This document shows positions 636 to 11,672 of a stretch of DNA of 23,679 nt, piece by piece (positions within the stretch are counted from its first letter, which is position 1; the number at the start of each line of letters is the position of its first letter). The position numbers and the translations under genes are program-made. The stretch is from a virus: IMG/VR virus record IMGVR_UViG_3300042556_001811, positions 1 to 23,679 of that record; one strand, written 5' to 3'. A model generated the notes under the pieces. The model made no database searches. It was not told where the DNA came from and saw only the letters and a program-made list of their open reading frames with translations.

Positions 636-923
636 ATGGGTGAGCCCACGGATCCCACCCGCCCGTACCCCCATTCTCCAGACGAAGTTTATGACCAAGT
701 CCACGACTTGTTCAGGAAATTGCTGTCTGAAGCCAATTACATTCTGAAAGCGGGAACCACGCAGAACAAGATTGCTTTGATGCGCTCTGTGATCCCTGCG
801 CTGATGAAGGAGCTTCAGGCCCGCGAGGAGTCGGCACGAGACTCTGAAACTCGTGAAATGTTGAAGGATTTGTTTGCTGCTGCCCGCCTCGAAATCAAGG
901 AGAAGCCGGGCGAGGAAAGCTGA
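636..923 (+). CDS. Candidate terminase small subunit
   Basis: The product is 95 aa and almost wholly helical after a proline-rich N-terminus (residues 1-13). The middle (DQVHDLFRKLLSEANYIL) and the C-terminal half are amphipathic helices with many Glu and Lys residues. The start ATG 636 follows a strong SD (AGGAGG, 621-626). Its stop overlaps the large terminase start (TGATG), the usual position and coupling of a small terminase, which recognises packaging DNA and recruits the large subunit. No helix-turn-helix is obvious, so the assignment rests on size, helicity and gene order. It could instead be another small packaging protein. Confidence 0.45.
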   Translation: MGEPTDPTRPYPHSPDEVYDQVHDLFRKLLSEANYILKAGTTQNKIALMRSVIPALMKELQAREESARDSETREMLKDLFAAARLEIKEKPGEES

Positions 924-2563
924 TGGATCTCACCCCGTTTGTGAGCAAGTTGACCATTCTCGACAAGAATGTGAACCTTGTTCACCTTGAACCGAACTGG
1001 GCGCAGGCGGATTATCTCGCCAAAATCGAGGAGCAGTTCAAGTCGACTGGCAGTTGCCGCGTCATCATTTTGAAGGCCCGTCAGCTTGGAATGTCGACAA
1101 TCACCGAAGCTGTCGCCTATTCGATGTCGTTCATCATGGAGAACTACCGTTCCCTGATTATCGCCCATGAGGTTGACGCCGCCCGAAACCTTCTCAAGAT
1201 GACCAAGCGATTTCACCAGTATTCGCCTTGGTCCGATTACTACTCTTTGCGTCACGACACGCGGAACGACATGGAGTGGATTGAGAACGGCTCGTCGATC
1301 AAGGTTGCCACGGCAGGCAAGAAGGGCGATGCCGGAGTTGGGCGTTCATCGACAAACCATTTCATTCATGCGTCTGAGGTGGCTTTTTGGGATGAAGCCG
1401 AAACTGTTTGGAATGGTCTTTCGCAGACAATCCCTAGAAGTCGAGGCACTTTCATCTGTTTCGAGTCGACAGCGAACGGGACAGGCAACTTCTTTCATCA
1501 CATGTGGGAAGATGCGGAAGCGGGAGAGAACGAGTATCTGCCGCTTTTCTACCCGTGGTGGAAGCACCCTGAATACACCGCTACGCGGGCGAATCTTCCG
1601 GTCTACCCACTTGGACATCTCGACGAAGACGAAGAGATGTTGAAGAAGCTCATGTATGCAGAGGGTTTGCGTGATGAGTTCGGCGAGCGCGTCATTTGGC
1701 GCCGATGGGCAGTAAAGAACCTTTGCAACGCAAATGTTCTCCAATTCATGCAGGAGTACCCGGCCACATCCGAAGAGGCGTTCATTGCATCTGGCCTGAA
1801 CGTTTTCCCGCAGGACAAGCTGAAGTCATGCTACGAACGGACGCCGGGGATCAACGGTTTCCTGTTTAGGAACGGCGACAACATCACTTTCAAGCCGGAT
1901 CCGCATGGACCCATGAAGATCTTTAAGAAGCCCGCCCATGACGGATCGTATGTGGTGGGGGGCGACCCAACTCGCACAACTCGCGGTGATTTCGCGTGTG
2001 CTCAGGTTCTGAACCGTTACACACTTGAGCAGGTGGCGATTTGGCGCGGAAAAACTTCTCCCGGCACATTTGCCGAAGAGTTGTTCAAGATCGGCACCTA
2101 TTTCAACAATGCGCTGCTCGTACCCGAAATCGAGGGCCCCGGTCACATGACTGTCGGCCAGTTGATCGGCATGAACTATCCGAACATCTTCCGGCGCAAG
2201 AAGGTCGACCGCACAACCCATTCCAATGTCCCCACCTATGGATGGTCGACAACGGCCCACAACAAGGAACTTGCTATCGGCTGGCTACTGCAGAACGTGA
2301 TCTCTAAGGAACTGCTGATCCACGATCACCACACCTACATGGAGATGCGAGATTACGTCACGCAGGACACAGGAGGTTACGGTCCCGCAGATGAAAAGCA
2401 TGGCCATGACGACACAGTCATGTCGATAGCCATCGCTGTCACAGGCCACAAGATGTCAGGCCCCCCACCAGACACGACGACATCAATGCCAGCTCTGCTC
2501 GATCGCCTCAACAACAAGCGTCCAGATGACGCATACGCCTATCCGGGAGAAGAAAGTGCCTAA
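923..2563 (+). CDS. terL: Terminase large subunit (DNA-packaging ATPase/nuclease)
   Basis: This motor pumps DNA into the prohead through the portal and cuts concatemers. The 546-aa length is normal for the family. The N-terminal ATPase shows a Walker A-like P-loop KARQLGMST (residues 51-59), a Walker B region around HASEVAFWDEAE (149-160) and the coupling motif STANG (182-186). The C-terminal RNase H-fold nuclease has three acidic positions in typical settings: GGDPT (D348), PEIEGPG (E402) and HDDTVM (D496/D497). The KARQLG signature is typical of many large terminases. The ATG overlaps the preceding stop and follows GAGGAAAG. No key residue appears to be missing. Confidence 0.95.
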   Translation: MDLTPFVSKLTILDKNVNLVHLEPNWAQADYLAKIEEQFKSTGSCRVIILKARQLGMSTITEAVAYSMSFIMENYRSLIIAHEVDAARNLLKMTKRFHQYSPWSDYYSLRHDTRNDMEWIENGSSIKVATAGKKGDAGVGRSSTNHFIHASEVAFWDEAETVWNGLSQTIPRSRGTFICFESTANGTGNFFHHMWEDAEAGENEYLPLFYPWWKHPEYTATRANLPVYPLGHLDEDEEMLKKLMYAEGLRDEFGERVIWRRWAVKNLCNANVLQFMQEYPATSEEAFIASGLNVFPQDKLKSCYERTPGINGFLFRNGDNITFKPDPHGPMKIFKKPAHDGSYVVGGDPTRTTRGDFACAQVLNRYTLEQVAIWRGKTSPGTFAEELFKIGTYFNNALLVPEIEGPGHMTVGQLIGMNYPNIFRRKKVDRTTHSNVPTYGWSTTAHNKELAIGWLLQNVISKELLIHDHHTYMEMRDYVTQDTGGYGPADEKHGHDDTVMSIAIAVTGHKMSGPPPDTTTSMPALLDRLNNKRPDDAYAYPGEESA

Positions 2564-4635: not shown

Positions 4636-6759
4636 ATGTCAGTTCAGCCGCAGATTTCGTACAACAAGTCTGATACGACTTCAGCTACGAACACGACGAC
4701 TTCGTACAGCGATGAGGACGTTGTTCTTGACCCAACATTTCCGTCTCGTCACCCAAACATTGTTGGGTCGCTGTACGGGCGTACTGAAGTTGGTGTGACT
4801 GTTGGGACTTCGGCTTCCCCTCAGCCGACGAACAGTCGAACCATCCTTTTTGAGGACGCAGAGGGTCTTCCCGGAGTCCTGAACTACATCTGGAACGCCC
4901 TTGGTGGAGCCGGTTTGAACGAGGTGTTCCAGAGTTTCCTTGCTACTGACAGCGGCTTCCAGTACCACTTCTACTTTGACGACAAGACGACTCCAGCTTT
5001 TTCGGTGGACGCGTTTGAGCTGTTCACTTTTATGGGTGGTGCCCGAGCTTTTGAAACTCCTCGTGTTGGTGTTTCAAAGATTGAGGGCAACGACGTAATC
5101 AACTATGACGGCTTCGGGGCCTACCGATACCTTTTCGCCCCTTACCGCTACTACTGCAGAGTTGAAATCGAAAGCGTAAATCCTGACAGTTACGGGATTT
5201 GGGCGCAGGTCGGTGGTTTTCGTCTCAAGGACGAATACTCTGGCTCGAAGAAGAGTTGGACGATGGCCATCAATGCGGCTGATGCGGCCCCGCAGTACGC
5301 CCTTATTGATGCCGGAATTCCATCGCTTGCATTTTTCAAGCAGTCCAATGTCCCAGTTGTGACCCCTGTTAAGGGCCAGATTGAATCCGTTTCTGCCCGC
5401 TTTAGGGTTGTTTCGGGTGCTGTTGCTGCTCAAGAGGGCGATATCGCGCTTTTCTCTCGTGCCGACAATCCTCTCCCTGATGTGCGAAGCACCGGGATGG
5501 AGGACTGGTCGAACTCTGCTTTTGGTACGGCACGCTACGAGTTGAGTGACTACTTTGCGCCATCGGTTAGTTTCAACACCCCCGGCGCAACCCACACACA
5601 CAATTTTGTGGATCCGGTTACTGGTGACGCAATCACCTCATCTACGCCTTCTGCTGCGTCTGGCGCACACACCCATACAGTTCTGATTCGCGGTGTCACT
5701 TACACGACTGACTCTGTCAGCTCTGGTGGAAGCGGCACAACCAATCACACTCACACGATTCTGACTGGGATCCCCGCTGCTAAGCCGACTGCTTGGCCTG
5801 CCGGTTCACACAACGGTTTTGGTGGTGTGATGCACTACCGTTTCCTTCAGAACGATCCGTTCTTTTTTGAGGATGGATTTAAGGCCCGTTGGCATGTTGG
5901 TCAGTTCGGTCAGCCCGGCAACGAAACCGCGACCGTTGACGTTCGTCTGTGTGCATCAGCTTGGGCTGATGGATGGCGCTCGCAGAATACAAACATTATG
6001 CCCAGTCCGGGTTCTGCAGCTCTTGAGTCGCGCCGAATTTACGATCTTGATTTTGCCAACAAGTCGCTGGCAACCTTGCCGTCGTTCTTTGGCGGGACAT
6101 GGGTTGATTTCGGTGCTGCTGGCGGCACGATCACATTCACGAACGATGGAATGAAGATCGAACCAAGCCCCACTTACGCCTCGGACACAAAGGGCATTGC
6201 GGTTCCTATGCCGACCACAGCGCCGACGACCGTTCATCCGACAGGGTCAGACGATGATTCCTGCCTGCTTTACACCGCTACAGGAAAGATTGACGCTCGA
6301 CTTCTTGGTGGAGGAGCCCCTCTGGCTTTGATGAACTTTGGTGTTTCCTGTCGTGGTGCGGTTGCCCCTCTGGATGCGACTGGCGGAAACGGCGTTGTGT
6401 TCGGATTGCCGCCAAGTTCATCGGGTGGTCCGACCGAATATCAGGGTTTTGTTGAGCATCGTTACCGGAATACGCCAATTCAGAATGTGCTGATTGGCAA
6501 GAACCTTGATATGGATTCTGCCGACATCACTCTTGCCGTGCTTGTTGACAGGCGACGCGACTACTCGATCACCGACGTTTTCTACTACTACTACTCACTT
6601 CCGGGTGAAAACACTTGGATTCCGTTGGGTTGGTCCGATTCTCAGATTGCGTTTGCTGCAGCTCCGAATCAGCGACACATCACGATTTCTTCTTTCTCCG
6701 CAGTTTCCATCTGGAGCAACTTCTCGGTTTACAAGCTTCCACGAGTTCGAGGTCTGTGA
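4636..6759 (+). CDS. Tail protein with GH172 (DUF2961)-like glycoside hydrolase fold
   Basis: The product is 707 aa. Residues about 70-450 follow the order of landmarks I know from GH172/DUF2961 enzymes: EGLPGVLNYIW (76-86), YHFYFDD followed by TPAFSVD (110-124), LFAPYRYYCRVEIE (166-179), STGMEDW (285-291, equivalent to GTGTEDY with its conserved Glu, here E289) and MHYRFLQNDPFFFE (399-412, like YRWHxxDPIxF). Between the last two is an insertion with three HxH motifs (H320/H322, H345/H347, H371/H373), as in metal-binding fibre stalks. The C-terminus (about 470-707) looks like a concanavalin-type beta sandwich. The ATG follows GGAGAT. Likely role: a virion receptor-binding or glycan-cleaving protein. 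Catalysis is inferred and not shown. Confidence 0.65.
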   Translation: MSVQPQISYNKSDTTSATNTTTSYSDEDVVLDPTFPSRHPNIVGSLYGRTEVGVTVGTSASPQPTNSRTILFEDAEGLPGVLNYIWNALGGAGLNEVFQSFLATDSGFQYHFYFDDKTTPAFSVDAFELFTFMGGARAFETPRVGVSKIEGNDVINYDGFGAYRYLFAPYRYYCRVEIESVNPDSYGIWAQVGGFRLKDEYSGSKKSWTMAINAADAAPQYALIDAGIPSLAFFKQSNVPVVTPVKGQIESVSARFRVVSGAVAAQEGDIALFSRADNPLPDVRSTGMEDWSNSAFGTARYELSDYFAPSVSFNTPGATHTHNFVDPVTGDAITSSTPSAASGAHTHTVLIRGVTYTTDSVSSGGSGTTNHTHTILTGIPAAKPTAWPAGSHNGFGGVMHYRFLQNDPFFFEDGFKARWHVGQFGQPGNETATVDVRLCASAWADGWRSQNTNIMPSPGSAALESRRIYDLDFANKSLATLPSFFGGTWVDFGAAGGTITFTNDGMKIEPSPTYASDTKGIAVPMPTTAPTTVHPTGSDDDSCLLYTATGKIDARLLGGGAPLALMNFGVSCRGAVAPLDATGGNGVVFGLPPSSSGGPTEYQGFVEHRYRNTPIQNVLIGKNLDMDSADITLAVLVDRRRDYSITDVFYYYYSLPGENTWIPLGWSDSQIAFAAAPNQRHITISSFSAVSIWSNFSVYKLPRVRGL

Positions 6760-7052
6760 TGAAGGGTCAGTCGATTTCAATTAATGCTTCTGTTGTTCGC
6801 ATTTGGCCTCCTGCTGCAAGTTCGAAGGAGAAGGCTGGGCACGTTGACCAGCCGACAAGTGTGCTCATCAAGCATCCTTCTGGTGGATCTGCAGTTATTT
6901 ATCTCGGTGGATCTGATGTAAATAACACGGGACCAAACATTGGTTTTGCTCTTTCGCCTGGTGAGTCCCTGTCGGTGGATTTGGTTCAGGACGCAATTTA
7001 TGGAATTGCAAGTTCTGGCACTCATACCGTGTATGTGCTTGCATCGAACTGA
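6759..7052 (+). CDS. Small beta-sandwich tail or decoration protein
   Basis: The product is 97 aa. The pattern of short beta strands with IYLGGSDV (about residues 47-54), LSPGESLSVDL (66-76) and AIYGIASSGT followed by VYVLAS at the C-terminus matches a common family of small phage virion beta proteins found near fibres or capsid decoration genes. The ATG overlaps the stop of the GH172-like gene (TGATG) and has a GAGG at 6749-6752. Its position between two large fibre-type genes suggests a structural partner or spacer in the adsorption apparatus. Confidence 0.6.
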   Translation: MKGQSISINASVVRIWPPAASSKEKAGHVDQPTSVLIKHPSGGSAVIYLGGSDVNNTGPNIGFALSPGESLSVDLVQDAIYGIASSGTHTVYVLASN

Positions 7053-8467
7053 TGCCAAAGTTTGAAACCCCTCCTCCATTTCGGCCGTATCATCCTTCTA
7101 ATGGGATGCCTGGCTTTTGGTATGGGAGTTTTTACCGTCAGCGTGTAGATGGCCTGAATGTTGACGCGAATGCTGTCAATATCATGGCTTCTTTGATTTC
7201 TGACAACACCAGACCCGGTGAAGGCGCTCCTTATGCGACGATGACGCCGTTTGGGCAGGACAACTGGAACAACAGTTATGTTTCCGGTGCTGCTGCTGCC
7301 AGCTACTTTTCTGATGTTTGGCCTAATCCGGGTGCACTATCAGTCACTCAAACCAACTGGAACATTCTCAGATCTGACCGTTCGACGGCAAACCCCCATC
7401 CTTACTTCTCTGATTTGAGGCAGCAGGACGCCACTAGGGCCAACCCCCTTTTTGGTGGTGGCTATCTGGTTGGCATTTCTGGTGATCGACATGCAACCCT
7501 TTGGATTCCGTCAAAGCGGATGCTGGTTGAAGCGATCGGCTACAGCGGGCTTAACGCTTCTTGCGAAGCAATCGTCAAATACTCTTGGGGCGACGAAAAT
7601 TCTGGGATCCCGAATTTCACTTTGCCGCTCGCTTCTACTGGCGGAGGGCCTGCAGGCGCAAACGCTGCGTCTATTCCTGTTGGGCCGCTTTTTTTCACCT
7701 ACGACGATCTTCTTGAGTGCGGAGAAACTGGCGATCTCGGCCACATGGTTGGCATCTCGCTTCGCAACTATGGGCGCATTAGCGCAGGCCAGCCGACCGG
7801 CTGGTACAGGTGGCCTGCTCGCCGGTCTGATGGCACGATTGACGGCAGCGCCGTCAAGGCTGGTCAGGTGTTTCGCCTGAAGTCGACGTTCAACGAGGCG
7901 ACAGCATTTCCGACGAATCAGCCGCTTCGTGCGCTTGCTCGTACTTTGAAGAAGTACGGCATGATCGTGTATGACCGCAATTTCAACATCGCCAAGATCA
8001 CGGTCCCCAACGACCCCAAGTGGCCGACTGGTTCACAAGATTTGGGGGTTGTGCTCGGCAACAAGTTGCCGTTGTCGAATTTCGAGCCGGTTGACATGGA
8101 TCCGATTGCCGGGCCGACCAACAGCATTCAGGTGCTTGCCCCGTTTCCGGAAGCCGATTCGTTCGGGGTTCTACAGTCGGTTATTGGCTTTACTCCCGCT
8201 TACGGCGGGGAGCAGATCACGTTGAACGGCGACAATTTGACGGGAACGACCAAGGTGGTAATCACCGGGGCGCTTTCCGCCGTCAGCTTCACGGTTGTTA
8301 ACGACAACACGCTGACGTTTGTGGCCCCGCCCGGACAGCCGGGTTTGTGCGATTTTTGGGTTGAAAACATTTACGGGTCCAGCAACTTTCTCGACTTTGA
8401 ATACACGACAGTTATTCCTAGTCGGAATGTTCATTCCGCCTCATCTGGGCGGATGGGACTTGGATGA
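7052..8467 (+). CDS. Tail/adsorption protein with C-terminal IPT/TIG Ig-like domain
   Basis: The product is 471 aa. Residues about 380-460 form an IPT/TIG domain: GFTPAYGGEQITLNGDNL, then KVVITGA, then LTFVAPP, a fold common in surface and phage adhesion proteins. The preceding body (about 60-350) has GDDDxxN-like and ALKxYGMIV-like blocks (LARTLKKYGMIVYDRNFN) that I recall from secreted bacterial proteins of unknown function, so a carbohydrate-facing jelly-roll body is plausible. The ATG overlaps the preceding stop and has no clear SD, consistent with translational coupling. It probably acts with the GH172-like protein in host recognition. No catalytic residues can be assigned. Confidence 0.6.
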   Translation: MPKFETPPPFRPYHPSNGMPGFWYGSFYRQRVDGLNVDANAVNIMASLISDNTRPGEGAPYATMTPFGQDNWNNSYVSGAAAASYFSDVWPNPGALSVTQTNWNILRSDRSTANPHPYFSDLRQQDATRANPLFGGGYLVGISGDRHATLWIPSKRMLVEAIGYSGLNASCEAIVKYSWGDENSGIPNFTLPLASTGGGPAGANAASIPVGPLFFTYDDLLECGETGDLGHMVGISLRNYGRISAGQPTGWYRWPARRSDGTIDGSAVKAGQVFRLKSTFNEATAFPTNQPLRALARTLKKYGMIVYDRNFNIAKITVPNDPKWPTGSQDLGVVLGNKLPLSNFEPVDMDPIAGPTNSIQVLAPFPEADSFGVLQSVIGFTPAYGGEQITLNGDNLTGTTKVVITGALSAVSFTVVNDNTLTFVAPPGQPGLCDFWVENIYGSSNFLDFEYTTVIPSRNVHSASSGRMGLG

Positions 8468-9665: not shown

Positions 9666-9692
9666 TCACGCGTTGTCCAATCAGGAGGAATG

Positions 9693-10640
9693 ATGAGCGA
9701 TTACGAAGATGACATCCTCGAAGGTTTTGAAGACCCGAATCGGGTTGCAAACATGGCCGAGGATCTCAATGAGATGCTCGAAGAATCTCGTCTTCTTGAA
9801 GAGTCAGAGCAGGATGACGACGACGACCTTCTTTACGAGGATGAGGTCGGCGAGTACGAGGATTCCGAAATTGAGGAGCCGCCTTCGTACTACAAGCTTG
9901 GCGACTATGAGATTCCTGCAAGTCAGGTAGATGATGTTGTCAATCTTGTCCAATGGGCTTCTTCGCTTTCTCCCGAGCAGGCAGACCAAATTAACCGTGC
10001 TTTGGCCGGAGAGGTGGCCGCTGCATCGCAGGTTGCTGATGTCGAGCCAGCTTCTAGTCAGCCCTCGATTCCTTCGTACATCGAAGAGCTTGAGTCTTCT
10101 GATCCCACAATGGCTCGGTACATGCGGGAGATGTACGAGGAGCGAATCCAGCGAGAGCAGGAACTTGAAACTCGTTTGAACGAGGTGATGGGTGAACTGA
10201 CCGCCCTTGAAGGCATTACGGGTGAACGCATTTATGCTGAAACCCGGCAGGAAGTTGCTCAGGTCGAGGAGAACGTTCGCGACAATTTCCTCGCAGAGTA
10301 CGGCCTTGACGACGAGGACTACGACCTTCTTGTTGCTACTGCCGGAGAGCTGAACATCACAAATTCGATGGTTCAGGCTTACGGCATGGAAGAGGGTTTC
10401 CGGAAGACTCTCGAGACTGCACTTTACGCAAATGAGGATCTTCGGAATCGTTCCGTTTCCAACGAAGTTGAGTCTCGACTTGTTGCAGAGCAGACATCTT
10501 CTCGAAAGGAAGCTGCAGCCGGTCTTGCCCCTCAGGGCGGAACAAATCTTCCCACTTCCACACCTGCTGGTTTGCCCCAGTCTGAGCGTCGTTCAGCGAT
10601 GGTTCGTGACATTGAAGCTCTTCTCGGAATGCAGCCTTAA
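9693..10640 (+). CDS. Scaffold-like head assembly protein
   Basis: The product is 315 aa from ATG 9693. The adjacent ATG 9690 is only one base from the SD (AGGAGG, 9683-9688), so 9693 is favoured. It is highly acidic at the N-terminus, with a run DDDDD and EDEVGEYEDSEIEE at about residues 40-65. A long charged helix or coiled coil follows (about 140-180, EMYEERIQREQELETRL), then a C-terminal helix (SERRSAMVRDIEALLG). Acidic, helical and immediately upstream of the coat gene is the usual profile of a phage scaffold, which guides prohead assembly and then leaves. Sequence identity to a known scaffold cannot be shown here. Confidence 0.7.
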   Translation: MSDYEDDILEGFEDPNRVANMAEDLNEMLEESRLLEESEQDDDDDLLYEDEVGEYEDSEIEEPPSYYKLGDYEIPASQVDDVVNLVQWASSLSPEQADQINRALAGEVAAASQVADVEPASSQPSIPSYIEELESSDPTMARYMREMYEERIQREQELETRLNEVMGELTALEGITGERIYAETRQEVAQVEENVRDNFLAEYGLDDEDYDLLVATAGELNITNSMVQAYGMEEGFRKTLETALYANEDLRNRSVSNEVESRLVAEQTSSRKEAAAGLAPQGGTNLPTSTPAGLPQSERRSAMVRDIEALLGMQP

Positions 10641-10662
10641 TTTCTATTCCATACAGAGTTCC

Positions 10663-10689
10663 TTGACTTGCTTCAATTTGGTGTAACTT
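10663..10689 (+). promoter_or_regulatory. Sigma70-like promoter of the major capsid gene
   Basis: TTGACT (10663-10668) is followed after a 15-base spacer by TAACTT (10684-10689). It lies in the 96-base AT-rich gap before the coat gene. The spacer is shorter than the ideal 17; shifting the -10 gives TTTTAT with a 19-base spacer. A start near 10696 would put the hairpin at 10694-10711 at the 5' end of the mRNA. Confidence 0.45.
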
Positions 10690-10693
10690 TTAT

Positions 10694-10711
10694 TTGTCCC
10701 CCAAGGGACAA
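10694..10711 (+). promoter_or_regulatory. Hairpin in the capsid gene leader
   Basis: TTGTCCC and GGGACAA pair perfectly (7 bp) around a CCAA loop. The SD (AGGAG, 10725-10729) and start codon are left free. No U-run follows, so it is not a terminator. A hairpin at the 5' end could protect the coat mRNA from decay. A short alternative hairpin (GGAC-AATC-GTCC, 10706-10717) uses part of the same bases. Confidence 0.5.
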
Positions 10712-10736
10712 TCGTCCGTTACACAGGAGCAAATAG

Positions 10737-11672
10737 ATGGCTACTCCGATCGGAGCAGATCACATCACGGCGATCGTGAACCGTCACCTGATGACGGACA
10801 TCATTGATCTTGCCTACGATGGCAACCCGTTGTTTTTCCGTATCTACAACTCGAATCGTCGATTTGTAGACGGTGGGCCGCAGATTGAGCAGCCGGTGAT
10901 GGTGAACAAGTTCACTTCCGGTGGCGCTTTCAGCGACCTTGATGTTCTCGACATGACGCCGCAGGACACTCTGCGTACTGTCGCTTGGGACTGGAAGGAG
11001 AAGTACGTTCCTGTTGCTTTCTCCAACCTGACGATGGTGAAGCTGAACTCGGCTGATTCGATTGCCAACGGCGTCGAGGTGCAGGTTCAGCAGGCTGCCA
11101 TGACGATGCGAGAGCTGCTCGGCACGGGCCTTTACTCCACGGGTACCAACCCCAAGGAGATTGATGGCCTTGAGCTGGCGATCAACACCACCGGCACCTA
11201 CGGTGGCGTTTCTCGTTCGGGTGCTACCGGCTGGTGGAATGGTGTGACGCCCGGTGCGGCAGCCCTCACGCTCGACAACCTGAACGACTGGCAGATGGCT
11301 GGTGTTGTTGGTGGTCGTTTCCCGACCATTGCGGTCACCACGCAGGTCGGCTATTCGACCATCTGGAAGCTGCTTTCTGGCAACCAGACGTTCTACTCGG
11401 TTTCCGAGAAGGACGCTCAGATGGCTTCGGCCGGGTTCAACAACTTCATTTTCAACGGGACGCCTTTCCTGATTGATCCGAAGTGCCCGGCTAACCGGCT
11501 TTACTTCCTCAACGAGGACTTCATCAAGCTGGCCGTTACGCCCCTGTCGGATTTCCGTATGGAGCCGTTCCAGCAGGCGTTCAATCAGGCCGCAATTGCC
11601 GCGAAGCTTCTTTGGACCGGCCAGCTTCTGGTTACCGCTCCGAAGCTTCAGGTCAAGGCCACGTTCACCTGA
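10737..11672 (+). CDS. Major capsid protein (HK97 fold)
   Basis: The product is 311 aa. The shape matches a common HK97-fold coat family. An N-terminal arm is followed by a central A-domain with a Gly-rich segment. Near the end come VTTQVGYSTIWKLLSG, then FNGTPFLIDPKCPANRLYFLN, then the P-domain strands ending MEPFQQAFNQAAIAAKLLWTGQLL. The block of FNG, DPxxPANRLYFLN and WTGQLL is characteristic. It follows the scaffold gene and precedes a cement-like gene, as expected. The SD AGGAG lies 7 bases before the ATG. Codon use is regular and the gene probably has its own promoter, as fits the most abundant virion protein. Confidence 0.92.
   Translation: MATPIGADHITAIVNRHLMTDIIDLAYDGNPLFFRIYNSNRRFVDGGPQIEQPVMVNKFTSGGAFSDLDVLDMTPQDTLRTVAWDWKEKYVPVAFSNLTMVKLNSADSIANGVEVQVQQAAMTMRELLGTGLYSTGTNPKEIDGLELAINTTGTYGGVSRSGATGWWNGVTPGAAALTLDNLNDWQMAGVVGGRFPTIAVTTQVGYSTIWKLLSGNQTFYSVSEKDAQMASAGFNNFIFNGTPFLIDPKCPANRLYFLNEDFIKLAVTPLSDFRMEPFQQAFNQAAIAAKLLWTGQLLVTAPKLQVKATFT

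Follow-up and report, generated by a model that had tools for sequence, protein, structure and literature searches.

The locus raises the question of what a DUF2961 protein does among the structural genes of a phage. In Pfam, CAZy family GH172 is named DUF2961 (PMC8605356), and its members form trimers with active sites between the subunits (PMC8812541). In a 2022 survey, homologues were reported from all cellular domains and not from viruses, with no link to proviruses (PMC8812541). The family is a proposed cellular sister of the double jelly-roll capsid proteins. The window, meaning the whole stretch that was analyzed, is a viral record of 23.7 kb (23,679 nucleotides), and one of its genes, P0001, had been likened to GH172 in an earlier sequence-only reading. 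That reading also proposed a tail-fiber-type insertion in the protein and an arabinan-type target on an actinobacterial host. Accordingly, the gene, its domains and its genomic surroundings were analyzed, and the features are listed in Table 1.

The reading frame of P0001 was intact and real. It starts just 3' of the portal stop codon, and its own stop codon shares letters with the start codon of the following ORF (TGATG); thus, P0001 was regarded as part of the structural operon. The gene order in the window is terminase large subunit, small zinc-ribbon ORF, P22/SU10-like portal, P0001, a 97-aa ORF, a 471-aa TIG protein, small ORFs, a scaffold-like ORF and the major head protein, which are followed by a decoration-like ORF and other structural genes, one of them for an SU10-type adaptor. 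The gene was also found, together with its flanks, in two other metagenome contigs with 99.99–100% DNA identity, so that it is not an assembly chimera, and DUF2961 is present in this phage on three contigs. The 471-aa protein, whose N-terminal 370 residues were unmatched, had no match in the phage collection and is probably a second adhesin. The small zinc-ribbon ORF (2526–2864) is FmdB-like, overlaps the end of the terminase gene and is kept between terminase and portal in several related phages.

Table 1. Coordinates of P0001, its parts and the neighboring genes in the window.
Feature	Position	Strand	Basis or remark
Terminase large subunit	923..2563	+	phrog_2
P22/SU10-like portal protein, directly upstream of P0001	2869..4632	+	Library matches
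P0001, DUF2961/GH172-type protein, 707 aa	4636..6759	+	ORF call and Pfam match
P0001 N-terminal region, residues 1–71	4636..4848	+	Without match in any library
DUF2961 domain, first part, residues ~72–300 (first jelly roll and catalytic block)	4849..5535	+	Pfam, hhalign, collinear alignment
E267 codon, motif EGD	5434..5436	+	Alignment; aligned with acid/base Glu270 of alphaFFase1
TGMEDW, residues 286–291	5491..5508	+	Alignment; E289 = nucleophile Glu291, D290 = essential Asp292, T286 = Ca-binding Thr288
Insertion segment, residues ~303–396, between nucleophile motif and YRF..DP block	5542..5823	+	Motif spacing
HTH motif 1, residues 320–322	5593..5601	+	Sequence
HTH motif 2, residues 345–347	5668..5676	+	Sequence
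HTH motif 3, residues 371–373	5746..5754	+	Sequence
DUF2961 domain, last part, residues 401–447 (YRFLQNDPFFF block and tail)	5836..5976	+	Alignment
P0001 C-terminal region, residues 468–707, beta-rich	6037..6756	+	Without library match
Small structural-block ORF, 97 aa, conserved	6759..7052	+	Directly 3' of portal in relative L005
471-aa protein, C-terminal IPT/TIG domain	7052..8467	+	Pfam match
Scaffold-like protein (9690–10640) and major head protein (10737–11672)	9690..11672	+	phrog_9953 and synteny

The family assignment was evaluated with several independent scores. Against Pfam PF11175 (DUF2961), residues 112–302 of P0001 scored 28.7 bits (E 1.2e-6) with a curated cut-off of 27, and a six-frame genome search with the same model gave only 23.9 bits, which places P0001 close to the edge of the cut-off. 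DUF2961 profiles were also considered that had been built without P0001 from 80 cellular loci and divergent members. With these, P0001 scored 17.5 bits, compared with a maximum of 8.2 bits in 5,000 shuffles, and exceeded all of the approximately 9,800 ORFs from 80-odd related phage loci. In the profile–profile comparison with hhalign (HH-suite), residues 79–297 were matched with a probability of 90% (P 1.7e-6, score 54.6), while the controls did not exceed 22.2 for 30 shuffles and 21.6 for the other 20 proteins of the window, all with a probability below 3%. The alignment with cellular members was collinear through the blocks PG..IW, YFDD..P, PYR, EGD, TGxED and YR...DP, at an identity of 20–26% to members of the family. 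Homology of P0001 to DUF2961 was thus considered established, and the GH172 relation that had first been proposed agrees with all three kinds of score. The landmarks named for it were all located correctly, namely G77-x-P-G-xxxx-I-W86, YFDD (113–116), TPAFSVD (119–125), PYRY (169–172), TGMEDW with E289, YRFLQNDPFFF (401–411) and HTH at 320, 345 and 371.

In alphaFFase1 of Bifidobacterium dentium (7v1v), Glu270 acts as acid/base and Glu291 as nucleophile; around the sugar are Asp292, Trp267 and Trp298, together with Tyr187 from the neighboring subunit, and activity was approximately 2% or less in those mutants of Glu270, Glu291 and Asp292 that were tested (PMC8605356). This residue numbering was reproduced by our alignment with the PDB entry. 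By alignment, P0001 has the catalytic Glu pair and the adjacent Asp (E267, E289 and D290). The motif EG[DEN], in which E267 is located, precedes TGxED in 121 of 121 cellular homologues. E289 had already been singled out, and its alignment with Glu291 is consistent with a nucleophile position; a second acid, which was still sought, is supplied on alignment by E267. The set of aromatic residues of the -1 subsite (Trp267, Tyr187 and Trp298) was not preserved as a whole. An aromatic residue is retained at the Tyr187 position (W189), the position of Trp298 is occupied by F296, and the Trp267 loop is deleted (8 residues). As a result of the latter two changes, the pocket of P0001 differs from that of alphaFFase1. 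Trp267 was also missing in four divergent cellular DUF2961 homologues. Thus, Trp267 does not define the whole family, and its loss in P0001 is no proof of inactivity.

P0001 shares with alphaFFase1 the order of blocks, both catalytic Glu residues, the adjacent Asp, the Thr of TGxED and the aromatic residue at the Tyr187 position. Apart from the missing Trp267 loop, it differs from alphaFFase1 in having additional regions at both termini, in being encoded within the structural block of a phage and in carrying about 50–80 extra residues with three HTH motifs after the nucleophile motif. The spacing from TGxED to YRxxxxDP was 110 aa in P0001 and 31–63 aa in 114 cellular homologues, all of which lack the insertion. 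A single HxH occurred between the two motifs in one of these 114. In P0001 the three HTH motifs are 25–26 residues apart, and three HTH were obtained in none of 20,000 shuffles, which upholds the earlier description of an HxH insertion of tail-fiber type. The insertion had no match in the PDB. In T4 gp37, iron is bound by HxH repeats, which have also been noted in other tail fibers (PMC11705849). Repeated HxH in a phage structural protein is thus common to T4 gp37, Alteromonas phage R22Y gp12 and P0001, for which the virion location is our inference; in the former two the motifs lie in a fiber shaft, whereas in P0001 they lie inside a globular, enzyme-type domain. Because trimers are formed by DUF2961 proteins as well as by HxH stalks, a stalk rising from an enzyme trimer is plausible. 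We met no description of such an architecture, with an HxH tower beside active sites.

Structure prediction was also conducted with AlphaFold2 using GH172-based alignments. The mean pLDDT was 44 for the full length and 52 for residues 50–450, and the first jelly roll, not the second, was modeled with confidence. In Foldseek searches of the PDB with both models, all seven matches with E < 0.001 were to the four GH172/DUF2961 proteins with solved structures (8ah3, 4kq7, 8ic8 and 7v1v); since the alignments behind the models consisted of GH172 proteins, this support is partly circular. The best matches included the GH172 exo-alpha-D-arabinofuranosidases ExoMA1 (8ic8) and DgGH172c (8ah3), as well as BACUNI_00161 (4kq7). 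These three share the catalytic pair with P0001; unlike P0001, they come from cellular genomes, ExoMA1 and DgGH172c from polysaccharide-utilization loci, and have no HxH insertion. A viral structure library gave nothing below E 0.001 for the P0001 model. The BFVD entry UPI001E6B8B39, a predicted structure of 367 aa, which is a length typical of DUF2961, matched the P0001 domain with a probability of 0.99 and E 1.1e-3. P0001 had no PHROG match, and no recognized virion anchor was found in it, although residues 1–71 may serve as one. The C-terminal region, which had no match in the PDB, resembles a LamG/ConA-like fold by eye only.

The position of the gene was compared with that in related phages, which were found by terminase and portal. 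In L005, whose portal is 57% identical, a homologue of the 97-aa ORF directly follows the portal, and an esterase-like protein and an amidase come next. Thus, P0001 is an additional gene between portal and 97-aa ORF. The slot contained Ig-like domains and a beta-helix tail fiber in L148 and was nearly empty in L147 and L150. In L149 the portal is followed by a collagen fiber, and an M15 endolysin is encoded between the terminase and portal genes. Across L005 and L145–L150, the cargo near the portal varied from esterase-like protein, amidase, M15 endolysin, beta-helix fiber and collagen fiber to a glycine-rich protein or almost nothing. PF11175 was detected in none of 49 related phage records, nor in control genomes, while the same search found the window's own record; consequently, the DUF2961 gene was regarded as dispensable cargo. 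P0001 therefore occupies the portal–scaffold slot of a structural operon, in which relatives carry fiber and lysis genes, and its being extra cargo in this attachment and lysis module was the principal ground for reading it as an attachment protein.

Taken together, P0001 is likely a protein of the attachment module that contains a diverged GH172 domain. In its full form, to which we give a probability of roughly 0.55, the preferred reading is that P0001 belongs to the host-attachment module of a P22/SU10-like podovirus, most likely as a homotrimeric tailspike or fiber, and acts on a surface glycan with furanosidic sugars by binding and probably cleaving it. Catalysis and substrate, the trimer, its metal binding and its place in the virion are inferred here. 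The body of the protein would be a DUF2961/GH172 double jelly-roll domain that was captured and has diverged strongly, and the protein may dock on the virion through the unmatched N-terminus and trimerize like cellular DUF2961 proteins. A furanosidic glycan of the cell surface would be bound at the subunit interfaces and probably cut by the retaining GH172 mechanism, with E289 as nucleophile and E267 as acid/base, so that the glycan would be cleared or gripped during adsorption. The three HTH motifs beside the active-site motif may form a three-chain stalk or tower pinned by metal ions, as in T4 gp37. The chance that P0001 is an active hydrolase in the virion, for which both location and catalysis have to hold, is about even.

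In an unlikely reading that nevertheless carries appreciable weight, P0001 derives from DUF2961 and is a receptor-binding or decoration protein that no longer catalyzes, and either binds a glycan without cleaving it or only provides a trimeric base for the HxH stalk. The deleted Trp267 loop, the change of Trp298 to Phe and the strong divergence of the domain would suit this reading. DUF2961 domains are moreover often paired with binding modules (PMC8812541), and the W267A variant of alphaFFase1 could not be produced (PMC8605356). However, both catalytic Glu residues and the adjacent Asp were kept amid this divergence, for which a pure binder offers no evident reason. Improbable in our estimate is a non-virion enzyme carried as late-operon cargo that would act during lysis or, once released, on polysaccharide of the host. 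The amidase in the slot of L005 and the M15 endolysin of L149 point in this direction, but the same slot also holds fibers in relatives, and a protein of 707 aa with a tail-fiber-type HxH insert and additional terminal regions is not lysin-like.

That P0001 is an ordinary jelly-roll fiber resembling GH172 by convergence is hardly credible. The models were poor beyond the first jelly roll, and BLAST-level similarity to GenBank phage proteins was lacking, yet motifs, motif order and catalytic residues agree and three scores were significant. A virion D-arabinanase whose target would be mycobacterial-type arabinogalactan on an actinobacterial host was judged quite improbable as well, if less so than convergence. 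It draws on the exo-D-arabinofuranosidases within GH172 (PMC10115798) and on an early gene discussed below; however, the GH172 activities in the literature consulted were exo-acting or directed at small fructosides, and the relatives of the phage point elsewhere.

Judged by terminase and capsid, the nearest classified phages have hosts mainly in Pseudomonadota or Myxococcota. On another contig of the window's phage (L228:5002–5565), a gene similar to MSMEG_6728-family pyrimidine-dimer glycosylases was located. Almost all phage relatives of this gene come from phages of Gordonia and Microbacterium, which makes it a weak clue to an actinobacterial host, while the metallophosphatase of the same phage was 54% identical to gammaproteobacterial phage proteins. 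The early genes are thus contradictory as to the host. No tRNAs that might indicate the host were found in the scanned stretches, and a search with P0001 of 399 genomes from the phylum of G017, 195 from that of G001 and 297 from that of G015 gave only two chance matches. Consequently, the arabinan-type target and actinobacterial host proposed earlier were not borne out, and an arabinogalactan substrate is possible and not favored. The sequence-only reading had the family right, under-interpreted the viral novelty and over-interpreted host and substrate.

With regard to this novelty, a literature search found no described phage GH172, as had been presumed for phage tails, P0001 had no match in 50,697 phage records, and canonical GH172 motifs were not found in viral contigs. 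Scanning with divergent DUF2961 members revealed a second phage-borne copy (148 bits) on a 25.5-kb contig, L229 (IMGVR_UViG_3300010379_000051). The protein (L229:2–2155) lies at the contig end and is open-ended, with 717 aa or more; it has a partial second DUF2961 copy at the N-terminal side and a Thr/Pro-rich tail, and EGD and GTGTED are kept. Its gene directly precedes head genes (for a major head protein and a neck protein), and baseplate and tape-measure genes are also present. L229 is a myovirus-like phage unrelated to that of the window. It thus appears that DUF2961 was acquired by phages on at least two occasions, and two unrelated tailed phages break the stated absence of the family from viruses. 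Somewhat short of even odds, we would suggest that both recruited it independently as a glycan-cleaving attachment protein of the virion, in one case with a metal-pinned HxH tower beside the active sites.

Podoviral tailspike depolymerases resemble P0001 in genomic context and in the presumed cutting of surface glycans at adsorption. Their catalytic part is usually a beta-helix or another fold, not DUF2961. If P0001 is a virion enzyme, it would add a new catalytic fold to phage depolymerases and point to furanosidic surface glycans as targets. The double jelly-roll major capsid proteins of Bamfordvirae share fold class and trimeric habit with DUF2961 (PMC8812541). Unlike them, P0001 is not a capsid protein, as a separate major head protein (phrog_9953) is present; as a virion enzyme it would place putative relatives of these capsid proteins in the virions of another realm in a non-capsid role.

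A cellular GH172 query also retrieved four fecal contigs labeled "Bacteriophage sp." (MT835583.1, MT835628.1, MT836379.1 and MT838830.1), which were rejected as mislabeled bacterial DNA; three contained SusC/SusD loci, and the fourth contained AAA-ATPase-like and beta-lactamase genes.
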